Assembly (NCBI RefSeq): GCF_018205975.1 | Contig: NZ_CP073577.1 | Coordinates: 2,976,001 to 3,040,000 of the forward strand | DNA length: 64,000 bases | Source: Erythrobacter sp. JK5 | GTDB taxonomy: Bacteria > Pseudomonadota > Alphaproteobacteria > Sphingomonadales > Sphingomonadaceae | Reading direction: 5' to 3' | Part shown: positions 49,018 to 64,000 of the stretch, in pieces | How the letters are laid out: every line of letters begins with the position of its first letter | How positions within the stretch are numbered: position 1 is the first letter of the stretch | Translations under genes and position numbers: made by a program | The notes under the pieces: model-generated | What the model saw: the letters and a program-made list of their open reading frames with translations, nothing else | What the model was told of the DNA's origin: nothing | Databases searched by the model: none

Positions 49018-49104
<87 letters not shown>

Positions 49105-49281: not shown

Positions 49282-50490
49282 ATGAGCCTCAATGTGCAGG
49301 AAATCAAAGGCTTCCGGGCTGCCGACAAGTCGTATAAGAAATACGACTCGCGGGGGCTGCTGCTTCTGGTGAAGCCCAACGGCTCCAAGCTCTGGTATTT
49401 CAAGTACCGCTTCGGCGGGAAGGAAAAGAAGCTGCCCATCGGCGCGTTCCCAGAGGTCAGCTTGTCGCAAGCGCGCCAGCTTCGCGACCGAGCGCGGCTC
49501 AAGGTTTCCGATGGCATTGATCCGATGTTGGAGCGCAAGCGCAAGAAGGCCAGGATCAAGCTAGGTGCGGCGAACACCTTCGAGGTCATCGCCAATAAGT
49601 ACATCGACGAGAAGATGGTACCGGAAGGTCGGGCGGAGGCCACGCTGCGCAAGGCGCGCTGGTTCCTCGAACTGCTCAAGCCCGCAATCGGCAATATGCC
49701 AATCAACGATGTCGATCCGCAGCTGATGCTGGCGGCGCTCAAAAAGCTCGAGGCCAAAGGCAATCTCGAAACCGCAAAGAAATGCCGTTCGTTTGCAAGC
49801 CGGGTCTTCAGGTACGGCGCTGCTCTTGGTCAGTGCCAAACCGATCCAACCTCGATCCTGCAAGGCGCGCTGGTCACGCCCAAAGCACGGCATTACGCGG
49901 CGATCCTTGAACCCGAAAAGTTGGGCGGGCTACTGCGTGCTATCGATGATTTCGAATGTTACCCGGCGACGAAGTTCGCCCTGAAGATTGCACCACATGT
50001 CTTTGTGCGGCCCGGTGAGCTTCGCCATGGCGAGTGGAACGAGATCGATTGGGACAAGGCCACCTGGACAATTCCGGAAGGCAAGATGAAAGCGCGGAGG
50101 ACCCATGTGGTGCCTCTATCACGCCAGGTGTTGGAACTGTTCCGAGAGCTAAAATCGATTACCGGCAGCAAGGGGTATATCTTCCCTGCGTTTCATACGG
50201 GCCAGCGCCCAATGAGCGAGAATACTATCAACGCTGCATTTCGGCGTATGGGGTTCACCAAAGACGAAGTGACAGCGCATGGCCTGCGCTCAACGGCCTC
50301 GACCATGCTCAACGAGAGCGGGCTCTGGCATCCCGACGCCATAGAGCGCGCTCTCGCCCACGGGGACAGCAACGCTATTCGCGGCGTCTACAATCGCGGG
50401 AACTACTGGGATGAACGCGTAAAGATGGCGCAATGGTGGAGCGACTATCTTGATGAGCTTCGACGAGGCGAAACGAGCCGCGGAACGTAA
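49282..50490 (+). CDS. int: Tyrosine recombinase (P4-type integrase, DUF4102)
   Basis: A 402-residue integrase with a DUF4102 N-terminal domain (GFRAADKSYKKYDSRGLLLLVKPNGSKLWYFKYRF), a core-binding SAM-like region (about 100-200) and a catalytic domain with R243 (RPGELRHGEW), H333/R336 (HGLRSTAS), H360 (LAHGD) and Y370 (GVYNRG). It would insert the island into tRNA-Leu. All catalytic residues are present, so it should be active. See the inverted repeat before the start. Confidence 0.93.
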   Translation: MSLNVQEIKGFRAADKSYKKYDSRGLLLLVKPNGSKLWYFKYRFGGKEKKLPIGAFPEVSLSQARQLRDRARLKVSDGIDPMLERKRKKARIKLGAANTFEVIANKYIDEKMVPEGRAEATLRKARWFLELLKPAIGNMPINDVDPQLMLAALKKLEAKGNLETAKKCRSFASRVFRYGAALGQCQTDPTSILQGALVTPKARHYAAILEPEKLGGLLRAIDDFECYPATKFALKIAPHVFVRPGELRHGEWNEIDWDKATWTIPEGKMKARRTHVVPLSRQVLELFRELKSITGSKGYIFPAFHTGQRPMSENTINAAFRRMGFTKDEVTAHGLRSTASTMLNESGLWHPDAIERALAHGDSNAIRGVYNRGNYWDERVKMAQWWSDYLDELRRGETSRGT

Positions 50491-52437: not shown

Positions 52438-53253
52438 ATGGCAATCGAGGGCAGTTCACGGAAACGCTGGAGCGAAGAAGAGACGGTGCTCGCGCTGTAT
52501 CTCTACTTCCAGCTGCCGTTCGGAAAGCTGCACTCGGGCAATCCGGAAATCCAGGAGCTTGCCGCTGCGCTCGGGCGCACGAACAGCTCGGTCGCCATGA
52601 AGCTTTGCAATTTCGCCAGCCTTGATCCCAAAATCATCGACAGCGGGCGCAAGGGTCTGGATGGTGCGTCCAAGCTGGATCGCGCCACCTATGCGGAATT
52701 CGGGCAGGATTGGACCGGTCTCGTTTCGCGGGCGGAAGACTTGTGGACTGCGCAGGTCCGACAGTTCGAACTGCCACCCCCGGCATCGCGTCTAAATGAG
52801 AAGCGCAGTGAATTCCGGTTCGAGCCTTATCAAGGCGAGTCCACGACACAGGCCCTTGTGAATCAGCGCGTCGGCCAGGACTTCTTCCGCCGTGCGGTGC
52901 TCGCCAATTACGAAGAGACTTGCTGCATCACAGGCATCGCCGATCCGCGCCTGCTCACCGCAAGCCACATCAAGCCATGGGGCAAGGACAGCGACAACCG
53001 GCACAACCCAGCCAATGGCCTGCTGCTTTCAGCGACACTCGACCGCGCCTTTGATCGGGGGCTGATCACGATTGATCGCCAACGGCGCATACGCGTCTCG
53101 CGGCAATTGCGCGAAAGCCAGAGCCGCGAGACGCGCGACTATTTCCAGCAATTCGAGAACGCGACCTTGCGCTCAGCAATCCGGTTCGATCCTGAACCGG
53201 CGTTTCTCGATTGGCACAATGAACACTGCTTTGTGGATCAACGCGCCGCCTGA
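52438..53253 (+). CDS. HNH endonuclease
   Basis: A 271-residue protein. After a helical N-terminal half (KRWSEEETVLALYLYFQLPF, a helix-turn-helix-like start seen in such nucleases), the C-terminal half has an HNH_2-type motif: CCITGIADPRLLTASHIKPW, then the His/Asn part (HNPANGLLLSATLDRAFDRG). It is typically a single-gene restriction-like or self-standing defence nuclease. It lies upstream of the type I restriction operon but on its own transcript. Confidence 0.88.
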   Translation: MAIEGSSRKRWSEEETVLALYLYFQLPFGKLHSGNPEIQELAAALGRTNSSVAMKLCNFASLDPKIIDSGRKGLDGASKLDRATYAEFGQDWTGLVSRAEDLWTAQVRQFELPPPASRLNEKRSEFRFEPYQGESTTQALVNQRVGQDFFRRAVLANYEETCCITGIADPRLLTASHIKPWGKDSDNRHNPANGLLLSATLDRAFDRGLITIDRQRRIRVSRQLRESQSRETRDYFQQFENATLRSAIRFDPEPAFLDWHNEHCFVDQRAA

Positions 53254-53852: not shown

Positions 53853-54201
53853 TTTCTGCCCTCCTTCGGCTGAAAGCCGCATCCGACACGCGGCATGCGG
53901 CCTGCCTTCCGGCGAGGATGGGAGGGGGAGGGAAAACCGGAATCGATGCCCTGGCGCGGGCCAGCGGGCACAGCCCGCCACACGGGGGCTTCTACTTCCG
54001 GTTTCGGGAACGAGAGGGCAAAGCCTTTGGTGTTCCTGCCAGCGATCGCCTGGCGATCCACAAAGAATGGCACCCTTGCAACGGCGCGAAGCCGACGGAG
54101 GCCCTGCGCGCGCGATCAGTGCGCCAGCGGGCGTCCGGCAATGAGAGAGGCAAGAGTGCCTGCGGGTTAGCTCAAAGATGCCGCGCCCTCAGGAGCGCAG
54201 A
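53853..54201. other. Gap of 349 bases without a confident gene
   Basis: The stretch between the two-gene DUF3768 operon (minus) and the gene at 54202 (plus) holds only short overlapping frames. It should hold the divergent promoters. No RNA gene or long repeat was seen. Confidence 0.5.
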
Positions 54202-54681
54202 ATGCGCGGGACAGAGCGCGTCGACCAGGAATTCCCGCTCCGCTTCAAACTGCTCCTGATCGTCACCCGGATGGGCCGGGACTACAGGCCCGGTACGCGC
54301 CAGCGGATAGAGCAGGTTGCCCGGCAGGGCAGCCTACCAGACTTGCTCGAACTGCAAAGAAGAGGGATCCTTAAGCCTGAAGAGGAAATCCAGATGCCTG
54401 ACTTTTCAGACAAGAACGTTTTCGAGATGTACGTCGCCAACGGCATGAGACCTGGCTTCTGGTTGCGCAGGACCACTTGGGGAAACACATGCGCGCGTGT
54501 CGTCGATGTCGGTGAGATCAAGGGCCCGGCACCCTATTTCGGCAACCCAAAGGTCTATGCGGACATCTATGATCTTCGAACTGGAAAGCTGAAAGAGGCC
54601 CGTGCCCGGATTTCTGCTGCCGGAACTTACAAGACCTGGCGCTTGATCGACGCACCAAGTTGGTGGACTGATACGGATTGA
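54202..54681 (+). CDS. Hypothetical protein upstream of hsdR
   Basis: A 159-residue protein. ATG at 54202 has a good aggag site 7 bases upstream; an in-frame ATG at 54178 lacks one. The first 60 residues are helical and basic (FKLLLIVTRMGRDYRPGTRQRIEQVA), the rest contains Trp-rich strands (FWLRRTTWGNTCARVVDVGE, YKTWRLIDAPSWW). No family recognised. It lies 46 bases before hsdR on the same strand and may be in the same operon. Confidence 0.55.
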   Translation: MRGTERVDQEFPLRFKLLLIVTRMGRDYRPGTRQRIEQVARQGSLPDLLELQRRGILKPEEEIQMPDFSDKNVFEMYVANGMRPGFWLRRTTWGNTCARVVDVGEIKGPAPYFGNPKVYADIYDLRTGKLKEARARISAAGTYKTWRLIDAPSWWTDTD

Positions 54682-54727: not shown

Positions 54728-57700
54728 ATGCCGGGTGGGGCTTCAAATTTTGATTTTCTGGAGAAAAGGGAGCCGCTGCTTTTCAAGCTTGGGGCTCTGA
54801 GCGAAGGCTATTTCACAGAAGATCCAAATACCGCCCAAATCAAACTTCGTCAGTTTGCCGAACTTCTGGCTCAGCTTTCCGCTGCTCACTTCGGGATCGA
54901 AGTCTCTGCACAAGATGCCCAGGTCGATATCCTGCGGCGTTTGAAGCTGGAGTGCGGCATTCCGCGAGAAGTGTCTGACCTGTTCCATACGCTGCGTCTG
55001 AGCGGCAATCAGGCCGTGCACGAGATAAAGGGTGACCACGCATCTGCCCTGGCCGGGCTCAAGATCGCCCGGCAGCTTTCTATCTGGTTTGTGCGAACAT
55101 TTTATGAGCCAGGCCTGAAGTTCGGACCGTTTGCACCGCCGCAGCCTCCCCGCGATAGCTCGGAAGATGTGCTGGTCGAGATCGAGGCACTCCGACGAGA
55201 GCTCGAAGCTTCCCAGACAGAAGCAGAACGGCTGCGGTCCGAAGCTGAGCGTGCGGAACGCGAAAGGCGAACCGCAGCACAGATTGCCGAAGACTCCAAT
55301 CAAGAGCGTGCAGTTTGGGAGAAGCTAGCCGAAGAAGCTGATCTCGCCAGACAGGACCTGCAAAATCAGCTCGATTCTGTGGTCCGGTTTGCCAAATCGA
55401 ACAACGCGCCCGATCCCGAAATCGTTGCTGCAAACGCGCAAGATGCCGCCGATCTTATCAACCTCGATGAGGCAGACACGCGGTTGCTGATCGACCAGCA
55501 GCTTCGCGATGCCGGTTGGGAAGCTGATAGCGCCGAGTTGCGGTATTCGAAGGGTGGCCGACCATTAAAGCGGCGCAACCGCGCTATTGCCGAATGGCCA
55601 ACCATGACGGGACCTGCCGATTACGCGCTGTTCTGCGGAATGACGCTTGTCGGAACGATCGAAGCCAAGCGCAAGAATCGAAATGTCATGGCCGTTCTGA
55701 AGCAAGCCGAGCGCTACGCTTCAGACATTCATATGCAGGAATCCGAGTTCGCTGAGGGCGGCCCCTGGTTTGAATACAAAGCTCCGTTTGCTTTCTCGAC
55801 CAATGGCCGACCATATCTGAAACAAGTGGAGGCACTTTCGGGGATATGGCGACGCGATCTGCGCGACCCCAACAATCCCGCCGAAGTGTTGGCCGGGTGG
55901 CCATCTCCGCAAGGTATCCTTGAACGGTTAGCCGTCGACAAAGCTGCCGCAGAGCGGGAACTGGCGGCGCAGCCCTTCGACTTCGGATTTGTTCTGCGCC
56001 ATTACCAGAAGGCTGCCATTGAAGCCGTAGAGCGGGGTCTATCAGAAAACAGGCGAGCGATGCTTGTGGCCATGGCCACTGGCACTGGCAAAACCAAGCT
56101 GGCAATCGCAATGCTTTACCGGCTGATCTCTGCAAAGCGCTTTCGCCGCGTATGCTTCGTCGTGGATCGCAGTGCATTAGGACGACAAACCAAAGACGAG
56201 TTCACGACAACGAAAGTGGTCAGCGGCAAGGCCTTTGCGGACATTTTCGGGCTGAAAGGTCTTGAAGACGTAAAGCCGGACGAAGACACTCGCATCCACA
56301 TTTGTACGATTCAGGGTCTGGTTCGCAGGGTGCTCTATGCAGAAAGCGCCGCTGACGAACCCCCAATCGACCAATACGACTTGATGGTCGTCGACGAATG
56401 TCATCGAGGCTATCTGCTCGATCGGGAAATGTCGGACAGCGATCTGAGCTTTCGCGACCAGAACGACTATGTCTCGAAGTATCGCCGCGTGCTGGAACAT
56501 TTCGACGCCGTGAAAATCGGTCTGACTGCGACACCGGCTCTGCACACGACGGAAATTTTCGGACAGCCCGTTTTTACCTATTCCTATCGTGAAGCGGTGG
56601 TCGATGGTTTCCTCAATGACCATGAGCCCCCCATCCGGATTGCGACCAGGCTTTCTCAGGAAGGTATCCATTTCGCGCGGGAAGACACGGTCGATTTCAT
56701 CCACCCGACTAGTGGCGAGGTTGAGACAGTCACCTTGCCTGACGAAGTCGATTTCGAGGTCGAGCAGTTCAACAAGAGCGTCGTGACCGTACCTTTCAAC
56801 AAGGTCGTCGCCGAAGAGCTCGTGAAGTACATCGATCCGTCTGACCCAGACAAAACCCTGATCTTCGCGGTGTCCAAGGCGCATGCAGACATTCTCGTAA
56901 AGGAGCTGCGTGACGCTTTTCGAAACGCCTATGGTCCCATGAAGGATGAAACGGTCCAGCGCCTCACAGGCGACGTGGACAAGATCGATCGACTGATCCT
57001 CTCGTTTCGCAATGACCCACTCCCCAAGGTCGCGGTGACCGTCGATCTCCTCACTACCGGGATCGATATTCCGAAGATCACCAATCTGGTCTTCATGCGG
57101 CGCGTCAATAGCCGCATCCTTTACGAGCAAATGCTCGGGCGTGCGACGCGCCTCTGCCCCGAGATCGACAAGGAGAATTTCCGCATATTCGATGCGGTCG
57201 ACCTTTATCCTCACCTGGCCGACCTGACCGATATGAAGCCGATCGCGGCTGATCCCAAATTCACATTGACGAAGCTCTTCGAAGAATTGGTTGGTAGAGG
57301 CGACGCCACTCACAAAGAACGTGTTCGTGAGCAAATCATCGTGCGGCTGCGTCGACGATTGAAAAAGCTCACGCCCGAAGCGCGGGCAAGTTTCGAGAAG
57401 GAAGCCGGAGAGACTCCCGAAAGCTGCCTGGACCGTTTCGTCAATGGGGAAGCGATTGATCTGGCAGCTTGGGCAGCCGATCGTCCCCACCTTGGCGCAA
57501 TTCTCGATTGGACCAACGACGACGGAACGCCTCGCTATGTCCCGATTTCGGAACACGCCGATGAGGTCGTTAGCGTTACGCGCGGTTACGGCAGCGCCGA
57601 GAAGCCGGAGGATTTTCTTGATGCTTTCACGCGGTTCGTTCGCGAGAATGTGAACAAGATCGCGGCACTGAAGTTGGTCGTCCAGCGACCACAAGAGCTG

Positions 57701-58108
57701 ACCCGCTCTGAGCTTCGCAATCTACGCCTCGAACTCGATGCGGCCGGGTTCACCGACACGAAAATTCGCCGGGCCTGGGCCGACGCAAAGAACGAAGAGA
57801 TTGCGGCGTCGATTATCGGCTTCATCCGCCAAGCTGCCATCGGCGATCCGCTCGTGCCCTATGGCGAAAGGGTTCGACAAGCGGTGCAAACCATTCTCCA
57901 GCAACGCGATTGGACGGAGGTGCAGCGCAAGTGGATCAATCGGATCGGGTCACAACTCGAGCTTGAAATCGTCGTTGACCGCGCTGCCTTCGACGCCGAA
58001 CCATTTGCCGCGCAGGGCGGCTGGTCACGGATCGACCGGGTCTTTAATGGCAAGCTCGAACAGGTCGTTCGCGACATCAATGAGCAAATTTGGAAAGAGG
58101 CCGGGTAA
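54728..58108 (+). CDS. hsdR: Type I restriction enzyme R subunit
   Basis: A 1126-residue HsdR. The N-terminal about 130 residues resemble a DUF4145-type domain, followed by a charged coiled coil (about 145-215), the nuclease domain with its D...ExK core (ADYALFCGM then VGTIEAKRK, about 297-315), and the SF2 translocase with Walker A MATGTGKTK (449-457), DECH (556-559), and QMLGRATRLCP in motif VI. It drives ATP-dependent translocation and cuts unmodified DNA. The stop overlaps the hsdM start by one base (TAATG). Confidence 0.95.
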   Translation: MPGGASNFDFLEKREPLLFKLGALSEGYFTEDPNTAQIKLRQFAELLAQLSAAHFGIEVSAQDAQVDILRRLKLECGIPREVSDLFHTLRLSGNQAVHEIKGDHASALAGLKIARQLSIWFVRTFYEPGLKFGPFAPPQPPRDSSEDVLVEIEALRRELEASQTEAERLRSEAERAERERRTAAQIAEDSNQERAVWEKLAEEADLARQDLQNQLDSVVRFAKSNNAPDPEIVAANAQDAADLINLDEADTRLLIDQQLRDAGWEADSAELRYSKGGRPLKRRNRAIAEWPTMTGPADYALFCGMTLVGTIEAKRKNRNVMAVLKQAERYASDIHMQESEFAEGGPWFEYKAPFAFSTNGRPYLKQVEALSGIWRRDLRDPNNPAEVLAGWPSPQGILERLAVDKAAAERELAAQPFDFGFVLRHYQKAAIEAVERGLSENRRAMLVAMATGTGKTKLAIAMLYRLISAKRFRRVCFVVDRSALGRQTKDEFTTTKVVSGKAFADIFGLKGLEDVKPDEDTRIHICTIQGLVRRVLYAESAADEPPIDQYDLMVVDECHRGYLLDREMSDSDLSFRDQNDYVSKYRRVLEHFDAVKIGLTATPALHTTEIFGQPVFTYSYREAVVDGFLNDHEPPIRIATRLSQEGIHFAREDTVDFIHPTSGEVETVTLPDEVDFEVEQFNKSVVTVPFNKVVAEELVKYIDPSDPDKTLIFAVSKAHADILVKELRDAFRNAYGPMKDETVQRLTGDVDKIDRLILSFRNDPLPKVAVTVDLLTTGIDIPKITNLVFMRRVNSRILYEQMLGRATRLCPEIDKENFRIFDAVDLYPHLADLTDMKPIAADPKFTLTKLFEELVGRGDATHKERVREQIIVRLRRRLKKLTPEARASFEKEAGETPESCLDRFVNGEAIDLAAWAADRPHLGAILDWTNDDGTPRYVPISEHADEVVSVTRGYGSAEKPEDFLDAFTRFVRENVNKIAALKLVVQRPQELTRSELRNLRLELDAAGFTDTKIRRAWADAKNEEIAASIIGFIRQAAIGDPLVPYGERVRQAVQTILQQRDWTEVQRKWINRIGSQLELEIVVDRAAFDAEPFAAQGGWSRIDRVFNGKLEQVVRDINEQIWKEAG

Positions 58109-59577
58109 TGAACGGACCAAGGGCACGGGAAACCGTTCAAAAGCTTTGGAATGCCAGCAAGAGCCTGCAAGGCGGCGGTGTCAGCTACTATGAGTATGTG
58201 ACGGAGCTGACCTATCTTTTGCTCCTCAAAATGCTTTCCGAGGTGAAGCGTGACGGCAAGCTGCTGGAAAAGCGAATTCCCGCCGAGTATCGCTGGAGCG
58301 CGCTGAAAAAGAAGGAAGGCGAGCCGCGGCTTATCTACTACCGCGAGCTGCTGGTTGCCCTTGGCGATCGCTCGAAGGTGAAGTTCGAGCTGGTCAATCA
58401 GGTGTTCACCGATGCCAAGACATCTCTGACCAAAGCGACGGCACTGACCTCGCTGATTACGGCCATTGACGCAGTCAATTGGTACGAAGCGGAGGAAGAC
58501 GGTCTCGGTGACCTTTACGAGGGCTTGCTTGAGCGCACGACCTCGGAACGCAAATCAAAAGCTGGCCAGTATTTCACGCCCAGGCCGCTGATTGAAACGA
58601 TCATCAAGCTGGTCAAACCAAAGCCGGGCGAGACCATCCAGGATCCCGCTGCTGGCACGGGCGGATTCCTGATTGCCGCCCATCGCGAAATCTGCCGACA
58701 AACCGACAATCTCTTTGACCTCGACGAGAACGATTCCAAGTTCCAGCGGTATAGCGCACTGAAAGGTGCCGAGCTCATCACTGGCACCCACAGGCTCAAC
58801 ACAATGAACCTGCTCTTGCACGGGATAGAGCAGCCGATCGACCTGGCCGATGCGCTGACGAATGAAGGTGAAGACCTTGGCAAGGCGAACCTCATCCTGA
58901 CGAACCCGCCGTTCAACAAGTTCCCTGAGCGGGTGACGCGGAGCGACTTTTCGATCACGGCGGGAGCGGCCAAGGGGCCGCTGCCGTTCATGGAGCACAT
59001 CGTGCGCGCGCTTGAGGACGGTGGGCGTGCGGCAGTGGTCGTGCCAGACAACGTGCTGTTCGAAGACAATATGGGCCGTGAGCTGCGCACCTGGCTCATG
59101 AACCAGTGCAACCTGCATACGATCCTTCGGCTGCCTACCGGCATTTTCTATGCTCAAGGCGTGAAGACGAATGTCATGTTTTTCACAAAGATTTCCGAGA
59201 CCGCAGAAAACGCGACAAAGGAAGTTTGGTTCTATGACCTGCGCGCACAGATGCCGAGCTTCGGCAAGACACGCACGTTAACAGCCGAAGATTTCGCTGA
59301 CTTCGTCAAAGCCTTCGGCGATGATCCGCTGGGTGGGGCCAAGCGAAAAGACCAAGGCGAGACCGGGCGCTTCCGGAAGTTTACGCGCGAAGACATCACC
59401 AAGCGCAATGACAATCTCGACATCTCATGGCTGCGCGATGACGAAGAGGAGGTCGAGGAAGGTCTCACCGAGCCGGAAGACATCGCTGCGGCCATCTTGG
59501 GTCACCTTCGCGCGGCCCTCGCAGAAATCGAAGCGGTCGAAGAGGAATTGGCTGAGACCGATGAGGTCGAGGCGTGA
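58108..59577 (+). CDS. hsdM: Type I restriction enzyme M subunit (N6-adenine methyltransferase)
   Basis: A 489-residue HsdM with N-terminal helical bundle (LWNASKSLQGGGVSYYEYVTEL), SAM motif DPAAGTGGF (179-187) and catalytic NPPF (266-269), all intact. With HsdS it makes the modification enzyme, and with HsdR the restriction enzyme. The GTG of the next gene overlaps its stop by four bases (GTGA). Confidence 0.96.
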   Translation: MNGPRARETVQKLWNASKSLQGGGVSYYEYVTELTYLLLLKMLSEVKRDGKLLEKRIPAEYRWSALKKKEGEPRLIYYRELLVALGDRSKVKFELVNQVFTDAKTSLTKATALTSLITAIDAVNWYEAEEDGLGDLYEGLLERTTSERKSKAGQYFTPRPLIETIIKLVKPKPGETIQDPAAGTGGFLIAAHREICRQTDNLFDLDENDSKFQRYSALKGAELITGTHRLNTMNLLLHGIEQPIDLADALTNEGEDLGKANLILTNPPFNKFPERVTRSDFSITAGAAKGPLPFMEHIVRALEDGGRAAVVVPDNVLFEDNMGRELRTWLMNQCNLHTILRLPTGIFYAQGVKTNVMFFTKISETAENATKEVWFYDLRAQMPSFGKTRTLTAEDFADFVKAFGDDPLGGAKRKDQGETGRFRKFTREDITKRNDNLDISWLRDDEEEVEEGLTEPEDIAAAILGHLRAALAEIEAVEEELAETDEVEA

Positions 59578-60323
59578 CAACCAATCGCGACACCTATTTT
59601 GGTGCACTTGGCCTCAGCCCGCCCGGCGCAAAATCCAAGGGGACGAGACGCACTGCGGCTGGCGAGAGCTCTGATCGTGAGCGGGATGCCCGGCTTGCTG
59701 CTCTCACACGCTCGCATGAGATACGGCAATTCGAGATTGAGCTCTATTGGAAGAGGGCAAACTACTTCTGGCTCCTGCAGGGTGCAGTATTCGCGGCTAT
59801 CGGATTGATTTGGAGAGATGCGAGCGGCTTGATCCCGTCCCTCCTTCCCGTTGGACTCGCTGCTTTGGGCGCAGTTACGGCATTGGCGGGATGGTTATCC
59901 TCTCAGGGGTCGAAGTTCTGGCAGGAGAACTGGGAGCACCACATCGATATGCTCGAAGACGAGTTTGAGGGGCGCTTGCACAAGACAGCGTACGTCGGGA
60001 AGAAGGGCATTCGATGGTCTGTGTCTGGTGTGAACGATCGACTTGCTTTGTGTTTTTGGATCTTCTGGCTTTTTGTTTTGCTGGTAGCCACGAGTAAGAC
60101 CAATCCAAACTGGACTCTCGATCCGCACAAGTTGACCCTGTGCCCAACGGGACAAGAGGTAGGCACCATAGCATGCTGGCTGTTTGCGATTGGCGGGTCG
60201 CTCTATATCCGCGACCGCACCTCCGACATGCATGGCAAGGATGTCGCATACCCTGAGGGCACAATCGAGCTGAAACAAGGTGATGTACGGCCCTATCTTT
60301 TCAGAAGGGAGCCGAAGATATGA
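59574..60323 (+). CDS. RipA-like octameric membrane protein
   Basis: A 249-residue protein with a soluble N-terminal part and three or four membrane segments (about 66-84, 90-110, 155-175, 195-215). The block SSQGSKFWQENWEHHIDMLEDEFEGRLHK is the strongest feature of what I recall as the RipA family of octameric membrane proteins; the assignment is from memory of the family pattern and moderately sure. It starts with GTG within the hsdM stop, so it is translated with the restriction genes, and this placement is unusual. Confidence 0.65.
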   Translation: MTTNRDTYFGALGLSPPGAKSKGTRRTAAGESSDRERDARLAALTRSHEIRQFEIELYWKRANYFWLLQGAVFAAIGLIWRDASGLIPSLLPVGLAALGAVTALAGWLSSQGSKFWQENWEHHIDMLEDEFEGRLHKTAYVGKKGIRWSVSGVNDRLALCFWIFWLFVLLVATSKTNPNWTLDPHKLTLCPTGQEVGTIACWLFAIGGSLYIRDRTSDMHGKDVAYPEGTIELKQGDVRPYLFRREPKI

Positions 60324-61243
60324 GCTCCGAAGCCTTCGGTCGCACAATCCAGCTCTTCTTGGTGGATGGCACTCCCAACGGGCTGCGAAAGGCGACAATT
60401 CATGGTTGGACCGGCCTGACCTTCGTAGCCACTGGCACGACCTTTGCCGCGCTCATTTCACGGCCCGAGTTGGACCGCACCGGCATCTACATTCTCTCTG
60501 GGCCAGATGCCGAGGCGGTTGGGGGCACCCGCTCCTATATCGGTTCGGCCAACAGCGTTCGAGAGCGGATCAAGCAGAGTGCGCAGCAACGCACCTTCTG
60601 GGAAACTGCGATTGCCGTCACCACCAGCGACGACGATCTGTCCAAAGGCCATGTCGAATATCTCGAAGCCCGGCTGATTGAGCTGGCGCTCGCAGCCAAT
60701 CGCGTCACGCTTGACAACGGTACTAGCCCTGCTGGCCAGCGCCGCCGCTTACCTGAAGCAGACCAGGCTAACATGGAGCAATTCCTCGCCAATCTCCGGA
60801 TCATCCTGCCGGTGGTTGGGCTCGATCTGCTCAAGCCTCAGCCGCGCGCGGTTGCGCAGGCCAGCACCCCAGTCGAACAGCGCACTGCGCATGAGACCAC
60901 TTTCGAAATCCGCCACAAGAGCGGCGTTAGTGCCCAGGCCGTAGAAGAGGATGGTGAATTCGTCGTGCTCGAAGGATCGCAGGCGCTCAAGGATCAGGGC
61001 TACGTGATGCAAAGCTATGCCAGCCTGAAGGAAAACCTGATCGCCACGGGCGTACTTGTTCCAGGGGTCAAAGGTATGCTGACCTTCGCCAAGCCCTACA
61101 GCTTCAGCAGCCCCTCCGCCGCCGCTGCCGTGGTGCTCGACCGCAACAGCAACGGACGAACAGAATGGAAGGTGAAGGGCGACAAGCGCAGCTACCATGA
61201 TTGGCAACAGGCGCATGTCCACGGCGAAGGGATTGGGGCATGA
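60320..61243 (+). CDS. GIY-YIG nuclease and DUF4357 protein
   Basis: A 307-residue protein. Residues 55-75 carry the GIY-YIG signature (GIYILSGPDAEAVGG, then SYIGSA), with R82 and the catalytic Glu (VEYLEARL) at the usual distances. The C-terminal about 90 residues fit DUF4357 (SGVSAQAVEEDGEFVVLEGS, SYASLKENLIATGVLV), a domain often tied to restriction systems. It starts inside the preceding stop (ATGA) and its stop overlaps the hsdS start. It could cut DNA or act as a regulator of the complex. Confidence 0.8.
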   Translation: MSSEAFGRTIQLFLVDGTPNGLRKATIHGWTGLTFVATGTTFAALISRPELDRTGIYILSGPDAEAVGGTRSYIGSANSVRERIKQSAQQRTFWETAIAVTTSDDDLSKGHVEYLEARLIELALAANRVTLDNGTSPAGQRRRLPEADQANMEQFLANLRIILPVVGLDLLKPQPRAVAQASTPVEQRTAHETTFEIRHKSGVSAQAVEEDGEFVVLEGSQALKDQGYVMQSYASLKENLIATGVLVPGVKGMLTFAKPYSFSSPSAAAAVVLDRNSNGRTEWKVKGDKRSYHDWQQAHVHGEGIGA

Positions 61244-62808
61244 GCGAGTTGCCGGAAGGGTGGGCGCAAATCACCGTAGGCGAAACTGGCCAGTGGGGAA
61301 GCGGCGGCACACCTTCTTCAAAGAACAAGTCGTTCTATGGCGGGTCGATCCCGTGGATTAGAAGTGGCGATCTGCCAGATGGGCCAATAGTTGCGCACGA
61401 AATCGGAATCACGGAAGAAGGCCTAGCAAACTCATCGGCAAAATGGGTTCCTGAAGGGGCCGTATTAATCGCAATGTATGGCGCGACAATCGGCAAGCTC
61501 GGAATCTCGACATACCCCGTCACTACCAACCAAGCTGTCGCATTTTGCGTGGTCAACGACGCTATTGAACCGCGCTTTCTTTTCCACGGCTTGGCTGCCA
61601 AGAAGCAAGACCTGATCGAAATGGGCCAAGGTGGCGCACAGCCCAATATCAGTCAGCGGCTGCTTAAGGCAGTTGATTTCCCTCTCCCGCCAATTCCCGA
61701 ACAGCGGCGGATTGTGGCGAAAGTGGATGGCTTGGCCGCGTGTACCGCACGCGCACGCAAAGAGCTAGACCGCATTCCCACCCTCATTGCCCGCTACAAG
61801 CAACGCCTCTTGGCGCTGGCCTTCTCTGGAAAGATAATCGGCAAGCGCCCTTCGAAGGGTAAGGCGTTCGACAGCGGCTGTTGGGACGTCCCCGACGACT
61901 GGGATTGGACGCGTTTTGTCGATGTAGCTGAAATTGCTTCGAATTTGGTCAAGCCAGAGACAATCCTAGACCTACCGCATATTGCTCCAGACAATATCGA
62001 AGCTGGCACCGCCCGACTGTTGCCCTATCGAACGATCGCCGAAGACAAGCTCATCAGCGCAAAGAACCGCTTCTATCCAGGACAGGTTCTTTACTCCAAA
62101 ATCCGACCGTATCTGAAGAAAGCCGTAATTGTTGACTTTGACGGTGCTTGTAGCGCAGACATGTACCCAATCAGCGTCCGGTCGGGACTTAATCCGAGAT
62201 ACTTGCTGTATTGGCTGATCAGTGACGACTTCGCGCAGTTCTCCGCCCGCCACGAAGGACGGACAGTGCTCCCAAAAATCAATCAAAAAGCGTTGAACGC
62301 GACGCCCTTTCCTCTGCCGCCCCTAGAGGATCAAACCGAAGTGGTGAGGCGCATCGAGTCCGCCTTTGGCTGGCTTGATCGTCTTGCGAATGAACATGCT
62401 GTGGCTGCAAAGCTCCTCCCGAAGTTGGACGGAGCCATTCTAGCGAAAGCGTTCAGGGGCGAATTAGTGCCCCAAGACCCGAGCGATGAACCAGCCAGCG
62501 CGCTGCTGGAGCGGGTCTCCGTTGAGCGGGCTGAGAGGGCAGCCAGCGCCCGCACCCGGAAATCAAATACAAAGAAGGACCGAGCTATGGTCGCGAAGCC
62601 AGTGTCTACCCGAGATCAGCTCCTGGATGACTGCAAGAATTGGCCAGCATCCGGTCTGACATACGAAGATGTCGCGAAGCGTGTGACCCGTCCCTACCAT
62701 GAAATGCGCGAAGCTTTGTTTGAGCTTCTCTCAGAAGCAAAGCCGCAGATCGTCCAGGCTTTCGATCCTGATCGGGAAATGCTCGTGTTACAGCGAGCCG
62801 CTGCATGA
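61240..62808 (+). CDS. hsdS: Type I restriction enzyme S (specificity) subunit
   Basis: A 522-residue HsdS with two target-recognition domains (about 1-150 and 220-380) and conserved coiled-coil spacers (ISQRLLKAVDFPLPPIPEQRRIVAKVD, then INQKALNATPFPLPPLEDQTEVVRRI). Recognition sequence cannot be read from the protein. The C-terminal about 90 residues (from STRDQLLDDC) form an extra domain with a YDPREMLVLQ-like end, longer than the simplest HsdS. It begins at ATG 61240 in the GIY-YIG stop. Confidence 0.94.
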   Translation: MSELPEGWAQITVGETGQWGSGGTPSSKNKSFYGGSIPWIRSGDLPDGPIVAHEIGITEEGLANSSAKWVPEGAVLIAMYGATIGKLGISTYPVTTNQAVAFCVVNDAIEPRFLFHGLAAKKQDLIEMGQGGAQPNISQRLLKAVDFPLPPIPEQRRIVAKVDGLAACTARARKELDRIPTLIARYKQRLLALAFSGKIIGKRPSKGKAFDSGCWDVPDDWDWTRFVDVAEIASNLVKPETILDLPHIAPDNIEAGTARLLPYRTIAEDKLISAKNRFYPGQVLYSKIRPYLKKAVIVDFDGACSADMYPISVRSGLNPRYLLYWLISDDFAQFSARHEGRTVLPKINQKALNATPFPLPPLEDQTEVVRRIESAFGWLDRLANEHAVAAKLLPKLDGAILAKAFRGELVPQDPSDEPASALLERVSVERAERAASARTRKSNTKKDRAMVAKPVSTRDQLLDDCKNWPASGLTYEDVAKRVTRPYHEMREALFELLSEAKPQIVQAFDPDREMLVLQRAAA

Positions 62809-64000
62809 GGCTGAAGCGCCTTAAAGTCTTGCACACGGTCGGCAGCGGCGGGTTGCTTGACGGGCTAGAGGTATGGCTTGAACGCCCATCGAGCGCGAAT
62901 GAGCATTTGGCTCCATTGTGTCTTCTGGGGCCGAATGGTTCGGGTAAGTCTCAGTTTCTCCAGCTGGTCGCGGAGATATTCCAGGCGGCATGGCATCAAT
63001 GCAGTCCCAGCGAAGAACGGAAATCGTCGAACAGCGAAGTTCTGTTCGAAGTCGATTATCAAATCCGTTCGTCGGAATCAGACGGACCGGTCGACGTCAA
63101 GTTGTCCCGCAAGAAGCAGGGAAAATCAGCAGGCCCTATTGTAATGGAGAGAGCCACCCCAGATGGGTGGGTGGCTGTGGATTCGGAGACAGCCGAGTTC
63201 GGGTCACTCTTACCGTCGCTTTTGATCGGCTACACCTCGGGCGACAACGAAACGCTAAGCATGCCCTTTCTTCTCAGCCGTGCTGGCTACGCAGATGGTG
63301 TAGCCAACGCCGCGTTGCAGGAAGCAGAGTTGCCGCCTGACAACCGAATGCTTCTAATCGACTACGGGACTAATCTTGAGGTTCTGTTTGCGAACTTGAT
63401 GCTGAGCAGCGCCACTTCTCGCAAGGCCATACTTGAGCATGCCCCCTTCGCGATATCGCCTCTTGCCGATGTGTGGTCCGGCTTGCGCATTCTGCCGCAC
63501 CCAGTGCTCCTCCGAAGGCGGCAAAACGCAGCGGACGGAAAGGCATCCAGCTAACAACCGAGCTCGAACAAACGCTGGATAGATTGAAGCGTTCAGCTAC
63601 GTGCTGGTCAGTCGACGAAAAAACCGAAACCTATACCTTCGATTATCTCGTCAGTGATGCGACTCGGGAAGCCTTCTCCCATTTTTTCAAAGACACCTTG
63701 GGCCTTTACCGGGCACTACATAAGTTCGCCCTGCTGAATGACCTTGCGATCCCACGTCCAGCGCGTCTGCGCCTAGAAAGAGCAGTGCGTGAGAGGCGTT
63801 TCGCTTCCCGCTTGCCGGAACCGCAGCAAGAAGATCTGGTCTTCGGGTTCGAAGAGGTCCGCTTCCATTCGACGTCCAGATCCAAGTCAGCTGATGTCGT
63901 AGACTACGTCTCATTGTCGGATGGCGAACACCAGCAGGCCCTCGTCCTCGGCCTCTTTTCAATGATCCGCGAACACAATTCGCTCTTCATACTCGACGAG
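62805..64000 (+). CDS. AAA ATPase of the restriction locus, frameshifted, 3' end missing
   Basis: An SMC/AAA-type ATPase starting at ATG in the hsdS stop (ATGA). Walker A is GPNGSGKS (42-49). The first frame stops at 63554 after GLRILPHPVLLRRR; the family continues in the frame that reads KGIQLTTELEQTLDRLKRSA, and ends at the window edge with SLSDGEHQ (the ABC-type signature) and FILDE (Walker B). One missing C in the run at 63500-63502 would restore H-P-S-A-P-P-K and join the frames. Such proteins are known as restriction-system-associated AAA ATPases. The gene is cut by the window. Confidence 0.8.

Follow-up and report, generated by a model that had tools for sequence, protein, structure and literature searches.

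Septu defence is built from an AAA ATPase (PtuA) and an HNH-type partner (PtuB), and the portions of the literature available to us describe it as requiring both activities and as cleaving tRNA-Tyr (PMC13096335). A precedent for a guardian carried by a restriction locus is PrrC, which is located in a type IC locus according to the excerpt at hand (PMC12707154). Here, we describe a type I restriction-modification (RM) operon in a stretch of 64,000 nucleotides from Erythrobacter sp. JK5 (NZ_CP073577.1, positions 2,976,001 to 3,040,000; hereafter the window), whose genome is a single contig of 3.34 Mb; loci compared with it carry L numbers. The initial annotation drew attention to two genes inserted between hsdM and hsdS, encoding a membrane protein and a GIY-YIG nuclease. 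This finding is real, but it is larger and different from what had been assumed, and its most informative feature is the link between HsdS and a Septu-like PtuAB pair rather than the two inserted genes. With a probability of roughly 60%, we favour the reading that HsdS gained an adaptor coupling the recognition of DNA by HsdM and HsdS (M and S) to a Septu effector able to replace HsdR, with the GIY-YIG protein and the membrane protein as embedded modules.

Open reading frames (ORFs) and profile matches confirmed that the six genes previously recognised lie on the forward strand in one direction. The gene content of the range 58108..64000 assigned to them was correct, but hsdR (54728..58108) starts outside it; its product matches NF008521 with 1533.8 bits (cut-off 729) as well as EcoEI_R_C and ResIII, with HSDR_N slightly under its cut-off. 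It is followed by hsdM (58108..59577; PF02384, 239.8 bits; PADLOC PDLC03026), the gene of a predicted octameric membrane protein of the RipA family, termed 8xMP (59574..60323; PF24838, 120.1 bits, cut-off 30), the gene of a predicted GIY-YIG nuclease with a C-terminal DUF4357 (60320..61243; PADLOC PDC-S14, 376 bits) and hsdS (61240..62808; PF01420 in two stretches). HsdR, the N6 methylase HsdM and HsdS are thereby found in one operon, the core of which is, on its profile matches, a type I RM system with predicted methylation and restriction activity. The overlapping junctions were verified in the letters, namely TAATG between hsdR and hsdM, GTGA between hsdM and the membrane protein gene, and ATGA at the next three. 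The AAA gene is not the single intact gene it had been taken for: its TIGR04435/PtuA-like N-terminal part (62805..63554; TIGR04435, 116.8 bits, positions 1-235) loses homology near 63443, and its C-terminal part (63473..64000; 255.7 bits, positions 270-567) lies in another frame of the same strand and continues beyond the window to L003:6406. Nor does the operon end there, as a PtuB-like HNH-type gene for a protein of 361 residues (L003:6406-7491, about 64405-65490 in window numbering) lies just past the window, with its GTG start overlapping the AAA stop codon (TAGTG).

A PtuA-like ATPase gene thus adjoins a PtuB-like HNH gene, the arrangement that defines Septu. PADLOC PtuA models match both pieces of the window AAA gene, the intact AAA gene of L010 reaches 554 bits with PDLC00293 (PtuA), and the HNH partners of L010 and L008 match PtuB (PDLC00343) strongly. 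The HNH partner of the window yielded weak matches to PDC-M62B, PDC-M01B and PtuB and none to a Pfam HNH family. Compared with the PDB, the L011 AAA protein retrieved solved retron PtuA chains at E values of 0.0005-0.0016, with an OLD-family protein ahead at 0.0002, while PDB sequence searches gave nothing convincing for the tail profile A3 or the L011 HNH protein. This position is filled by at least two kinds of AAA-HNH pair, in operons with or without 8xMP. PDLC00293 was matched in 9/398 genomes at phylum level, the window's included, and a class-level search with TIGR04435 returned one genome above cut-off plus many weak matches, too thin for counts.

The evidence for a link between this pair and HsdS comes from a C-terminal HsdS domain of 73 residues that begins at an internal ATG (62587..62805, forward strand) and is a candidate PtuAB adaptor. 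Measured against a profile of HsdS proteins from AAA-negative loci, HsdS is longer at its C-terminus by 72-147 residues in 28 of 31 AAA-positive loci, whereas the excess is 0-25 residues in 38/38 AAA-negative loci, a hand-picked subset of those at hand in which low values are partly due to the construction of the profile (Fisher 2.7e-16, kinship ignored). A motif-based measure agrees (median 123 vs 40 residues; 25 AAA-positive vs 26 AAA-negative loci measurable), with the profile-based value used for L031, where the motif-based one is an artefact. Two of the exceptions without a long tail, L174 and L177, have no HNH partner. L093, L183 and L169 are AAA-positive but stand outside the 31 scored loci, L093 and L183 ending tail-like by eye, and L181 and L182 hold an AAA match only. 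The tail is kept in AAA-positive loci across several phyla. Across 26 loci, the tail correlates with AAA (Spearman 0.67) and HNH (0.63) and less with HsdM (0.24), whereas the HsdS core correlates with HsdM (0.67) and less with AAA (0.21). Partial Mantel tests given HsdM gave 0.65 for tail and AAA and 0.61 for tail and HNH (both p 0.0005), in comparison to 0.05 for HsdS core and AAA (p 0.23). By these distances, the tail tracks the type of the AAA-HNH pair rather than HsdM, and the core shows the opposite pattern. The stronger coupling in the operon is the one between hsdS and this pair, initially regarded as a plain accessory.

A second line of evidence is the distribution of HsdR, which was searched for with phmmer using eight HsdR proteins and with a profile. 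Of the 30 loci that showed M, S, AAA and HNH together, 13 yielded an HsdR, whereas none was found in the other 17 (L005, L011, L014, L016, L091, L092, L093, L167, L168, L170, L171, L172, L175, L176, L179, L183 and L184). This count leaves out L174 and L177, which are kept in the 31-locus tail count, as well as L012, whose contig ends in the AAA gene, and L020, whose contig starts in hsdM. In the order-level sample of hsdM places, HsdR was lacking in 4/8 AAA-positive and 0/18 AAA-negative places (Fisher 0.0047). Pfam searches of large neighbouring ORFs revealed no HsdR domain in L011, L014, L016, L091, L092 and L093, and five of seven such genomes had no homologue of the window HsdR at E <= 1e-10. 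Of the remaining two, one carries HsdR solely within a distinct R-M-S locus, and the other has a 33% identical relative elsewhere. Loci without HsdR extend to plasmids of Bacteroidota and Bacillota.

We therefore propose a mechanism in which HsdR, HsdM and HsdS would form the ordinary core on an island that collected portable defence modules, with the PtuA/PtuB pair downstream of hsdS and the matching adaptor fused to the HsdS C-terminus. The M2S complex would scan DNA and methylate self sites. Unmethylated foreign sites, or the blocking of M2S by an anti-restriction protein, might act as the trigger, upon which the HsdS tail, presumably in contact with PtuA, would license it, and the PtuA ATPase would in turn activate PtuB, a nuclease whose target would be tRNA or DNA. 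In this scheme, a single recognition complex would serve HsdR and PtuAB, either as alternative effectors or as effectors working in parallel, which could explain the absence of HsdR from many relatives. A second module, in the gap between hsdM and hsdS, would be the GIY-YIG/DUF4357 protein with or without 8xMP; this module would probably provide backup cleavage, and 8xMP would act at the membrane.

The tail might also be made on its own. The first Met is invariant in eight tails of the window's type, and 6/10 database matches, proteins of 68-74 residues, begin at the same Met (P0241, P0243-P0247). A Met lies 60-92 residues from the end in 24/28 tails, compared with 34% of control windows. At 25 chosen Mets the median Shine-Dalgarno energy was -4.3 vs -2.1 at 159 other in-frame Mets (p 3e-5), which is also better than in synonymous shuffles (p 0.006); the 25 include L174, which has no true tail, and L011, for which a non-homologous Met was taken. 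The window's own site is no better than its shuffles (rank 0.61). We regard an internal translation start in hsdS as a lead, to which the ATG at 62587 contributes a candidate. Only tentatively do we extend this to an unrecognised restriction class, HsdM-HsdS-PtuA-PtuB, in which Septu on the HsdS tail replaces HsdR and the tail is additionally produced alone (about 65-75 residues), the window being a hybrid with both effectors.

Several observations weigh against the adaptor reading. Some HsdR-less stretches have short flanks, both on the hsdM side (L170 1.1 kb, L184 2.2 kb, L014 2.6 kb) and on the other side (L014, L005 and L093, 1.4-1.6 kb). L178 carries an AAA gene and a weak HNH match without a tail, and in L163 and L090, two of the AAA-negative loci, the AAA profile finds weak matches (34 and 24 bits, respectively) at a distance of about 5-10 kb. 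Clustering at the chosen cut-off divides the tails into 13 groups, which need not share a single descent, and the loci stem from GIY, hsdM, AAA and plasmid searches, are non-random and were compared with statistics that ignore kinship. The Septu arm of the window strain itself is probably dead, with PtuA broken. A blastx comparison with the intact L011 AAA gene showed that the frame changes from 1 to 3 close to position 63,444, and with five relatives that have an intact gene (L011, L020, L052, L069, L080) the window aligns in two frames abutting at this point. All that still looks intact in this strain is HsdRMS, the GIY-YIG protein and 8xMP, along with the HNH gene. Both AAA halves are 94% identical to L011, which suggests a recent frame change or an assembly error. 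L176 and L179 likewise have an AAA gene divided between two frames, and in L093 this is the case for hsdS.

The alternative that survives best, although we consider it rather unlikely, is that the defence genes are independent passengers with no mechanical link, for which a type I operon supplies a common promoter and a safe location. The tail would then have arisen incidentally when genes fused at the junction, and would travel with its neighbour. Independent systems embedded in type I operons are known, as the source sections at our disposal report TgvAB (PMC11411939) as well as DarTG2 and, between hsdS and hsdR, a pair of an RNA-binding protein and an AAA protein (PMC12255303). 8xMP and GIY-YIG genes occur with no hsd genes nearby, and the six of ten predicted small proteins that start at the tail Met look as if the tail had once been a gene. 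The tail lies immediately next to the AAA gene, and transfer of both together could by itself yield their covariation without contact. Passengers would, however, hardly account for a tail that is kept in 28/31 AAA-positive loci over several phyla and matches the AAA type, nor for a lack of HsdR that is concentrated where PtuAB is present.

The gene order itself recurs in other genomes. A scan with a GIY-YIG alignment, using one genome per species, yielded 73 loci, three of which are fragments (L072, L073, L076). By profile scan, the gene lies between hsdM and hsdS in 22 of them, and together with the window, L080 and plasmid pKN1 of Sphingobium yanoikuyae these form 25 M-GIY-S loci. In nine of the 25, 8xMP directly follows hsdM and directly precedes GIY-YIG (the window, L008, L009 in two ORFs, L010, L011, L012, L013, L016 and L162). 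The order is more than chance, because pKN1 repeats the full seven-gene order from hsdR to the PtuB-like gene, with annotated genes from hsdR to AAA overlapping by 1-4 bases, and because M-8xMP-GIY-S was found again in 7/73 GIY-anchored loci. An hsdM-anchored search found 26 places in 25/396 Sphingomonadales genomes, and all 25 besides the window's were retrieved; the gap between hsdM and hsdS holds GIY-YIG in 5/26 and 8xMP in 2/26. The inserted genes are not absent from nearly all close relatives: three further Sphingomonadales places encode an HsdM that is at least 80% identical, and in these GIY-YIG lies between M and S in 3/3 and the membrane protein gene in 1/3.

Both genes often occur outside type I loci, and they therefore look like portable modules, not one machine. 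A relative of the window 8xMP (P0225) carries the name RipA family octameric membrane protein, and PF24838, to which the window protein also belongs, exceeds its cut-off in 25/385 class-level genomes. The hsdM and hsdS profiles found no match near 8xMP in 26/26 retrieved class-level places (26 of 27 retrieved; some stretches short). The same holds for hsd genes in 7/7 order-level genomes besides the window's and G257, out of 9/396 with a match to the RM-type 8xMP alignment. Among four plasmids with 8xMP relatives, pKN1 has the hsd operon, and 2/2 others examined have no hsd genes beside 8xMP. On two viral contigs (L195, L196), 8xMP lies on the opposite strand amid what we take to be P2-type tail genes, as expected of cargo. 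M and S were not seen on both sides of GIY-YIG in 51/73 loci, some of whose contigs are too short to tell. GIY-YIG also occurs in other hsd arrangements, such as M-S-AbiD-GIY-R in Rhodobacteraceae-type genomes, M-S-GIY-R in a Rhodococcus and S-GIY-R on a Roseomonas plasmid. An AbiD-like gene directly precedes GIY-YIG in L028, L033, L034, L035, L044 and L045, after hsdS where visible, with an HsdR-type gene next in 5/6; Abi_2 was checked in L028 only. A further conserved two-gene set (about 660-810 and 425-440 residues) stands beside type I genes in L084, L087, L090 and L094.

The initial annotation had combined these genes into one functional unit, a single machine that would use the membrane protein and the GIY-YIG protein to convert recognition by M and S into, perhaps, damage to the membrane or a second cleavage. 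That the inserted genes recur with M and S held true, the genes overlap, and within the examined M-S loci 8xMP was seen only beside GIY-YIG. An obligate unit is nevertheless improbable, given that GIY-YIG lacks 8xMP in 16/25 M-GIY-S loci, that both are found outside type I loci, and that the presence of 8xMP requires at least four changes on the GIY tree and at least three on the HsdM tree, where L011, which has 8xMP, falls in a different clade from the window. The predicted 8xMP model consists of long helices at low confidence (pLDDT 67.6), and its role is therefore taken from the family name only, the octamer in the membrane being a prediction. Foldseek against the PDB (E <= 0.001) gave no match for the GIY-YIG or 8xMP model, PDB sequence searches gave nothing convincing for either protein, and a literature search for 8xMP (the Pfam name) or RipA octameric membrane protein gave nothing relevant among the matches listed. 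It is very improbable that the operon is part of a decaying island and in practice only HsdRMS, as the frame changes in the AAA genes of the window, L176 and L179 might indicate, given that the remaining genes are open and both AAA halves still closely resemble that of L011.

The operon looks as if it sits on an integrative island, on account of a tyrosine integrase gene (49282..50490, forward strand; Phage_integrase, Phage_int_M and Arm-DNA-bind_3 above cut-off) beside a tRNA-Leu (CAG) gene (49018..49104, forward strand; ARAGORN), the probable attachment site, and of TraI/TraD-type genes. Past the HNH gene, three genes on the opposite strand follow, which we take to be ArdC-like, TraI and TraD; the L011 relative of the TraI gene is a TrwC relaxase, as confirmed by profile. 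The putative ArdC-like gene (L003:7499-8380), presumably an anti-restriction gene, lies directly downstream of the operon and has a relative in L007 (80%). Upstream lie an HNH_2 nuclease gene (52438..53253, forward strand; PF13391, PADLOC PDLC04132) and a gene for a protein of 167 residues without known family (54178-54681), which is 92% identical in L010. A second HsdM with HsdS is encoded elsewhere in the genome (L001, G000:C1:3267837-3268784). Protein identity to L010 is high for the upstream HNH_2 protein (96%), HsdR (98%) and HsdM (95%), drops to 46% for 8xMP, 83% for GIY-YIG, 34% for HsdS and 28-29% for AAA with no match for HNH, and rises again for the ArdC-like protein (90%), TraI (87%) and TraD (88%). 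L011, which lacks HsdR, shows 58% for HsdM, 48% for 8xMP, 82% for GIY-YIG, 77% for HsdS (79% of its length), 94% for AAA and 87% for HNH. Judged by these identities, the operon is a mosaic of blocks with separate histories, in which the part downstream of hsdM appears to have been replaced while the surrounding island was conserved.

Among known systems, MADS likewise combines M and S subunits with an ATPase, but was rejected with matches far under the NCBIfam cut-offs (MAD2 85.8 of 720 bits, MAD5 23.3 of 400, MAD3 16.5 of 420). TIGR04435, the restriction system-associated AAA ATPase of NCBIfam, matches the window AAA protein in two pieces, each below the 300-bit cut-off, and its name reflects neighbourhood only. 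PDC-S14, matched by the GIY-YIG/DUF4357 gene, is a candidate system only; the accessible text on PDC systems lists them as still to be characterised and PDC-S14 as overlapping the restriction-like system GAO_29 (PMC10855318). PrrC in EcoprrI, TgvAB in VPI-2 and DarTG2 in the RptR island share with the window extra defence genes in an hsd operon, sometimes guarding it, but in the source portions covered they involve other modules and positions, with no HsdS adaptor or HsdR-less variant found. A literature search of limited depth, based on partial texts, likewise found no HsdS-Septu adaptor or HsdR-less M-S-PtuAB system. Cas11 arises from cas8, and the proposed lone tail would resemble it as a small subunit made from an internal start. 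Septu and retron-Eco7 (RT-PtuAB) share the AAA-HNH pair and the PADLOC PtuA/PtuB matches, but here the pair stands neither alone nor with a reverse transcriptase, adjoining instead HsdM and an HsdS with a tail. If the adaptor reading is true, the type I recognition complex would be a general sensor platform that accepts different effectors, and the HsdS tail would be a sequence signature for finding and testing such systems as well as a concrete candidate for the sensor link that wakes Septu.

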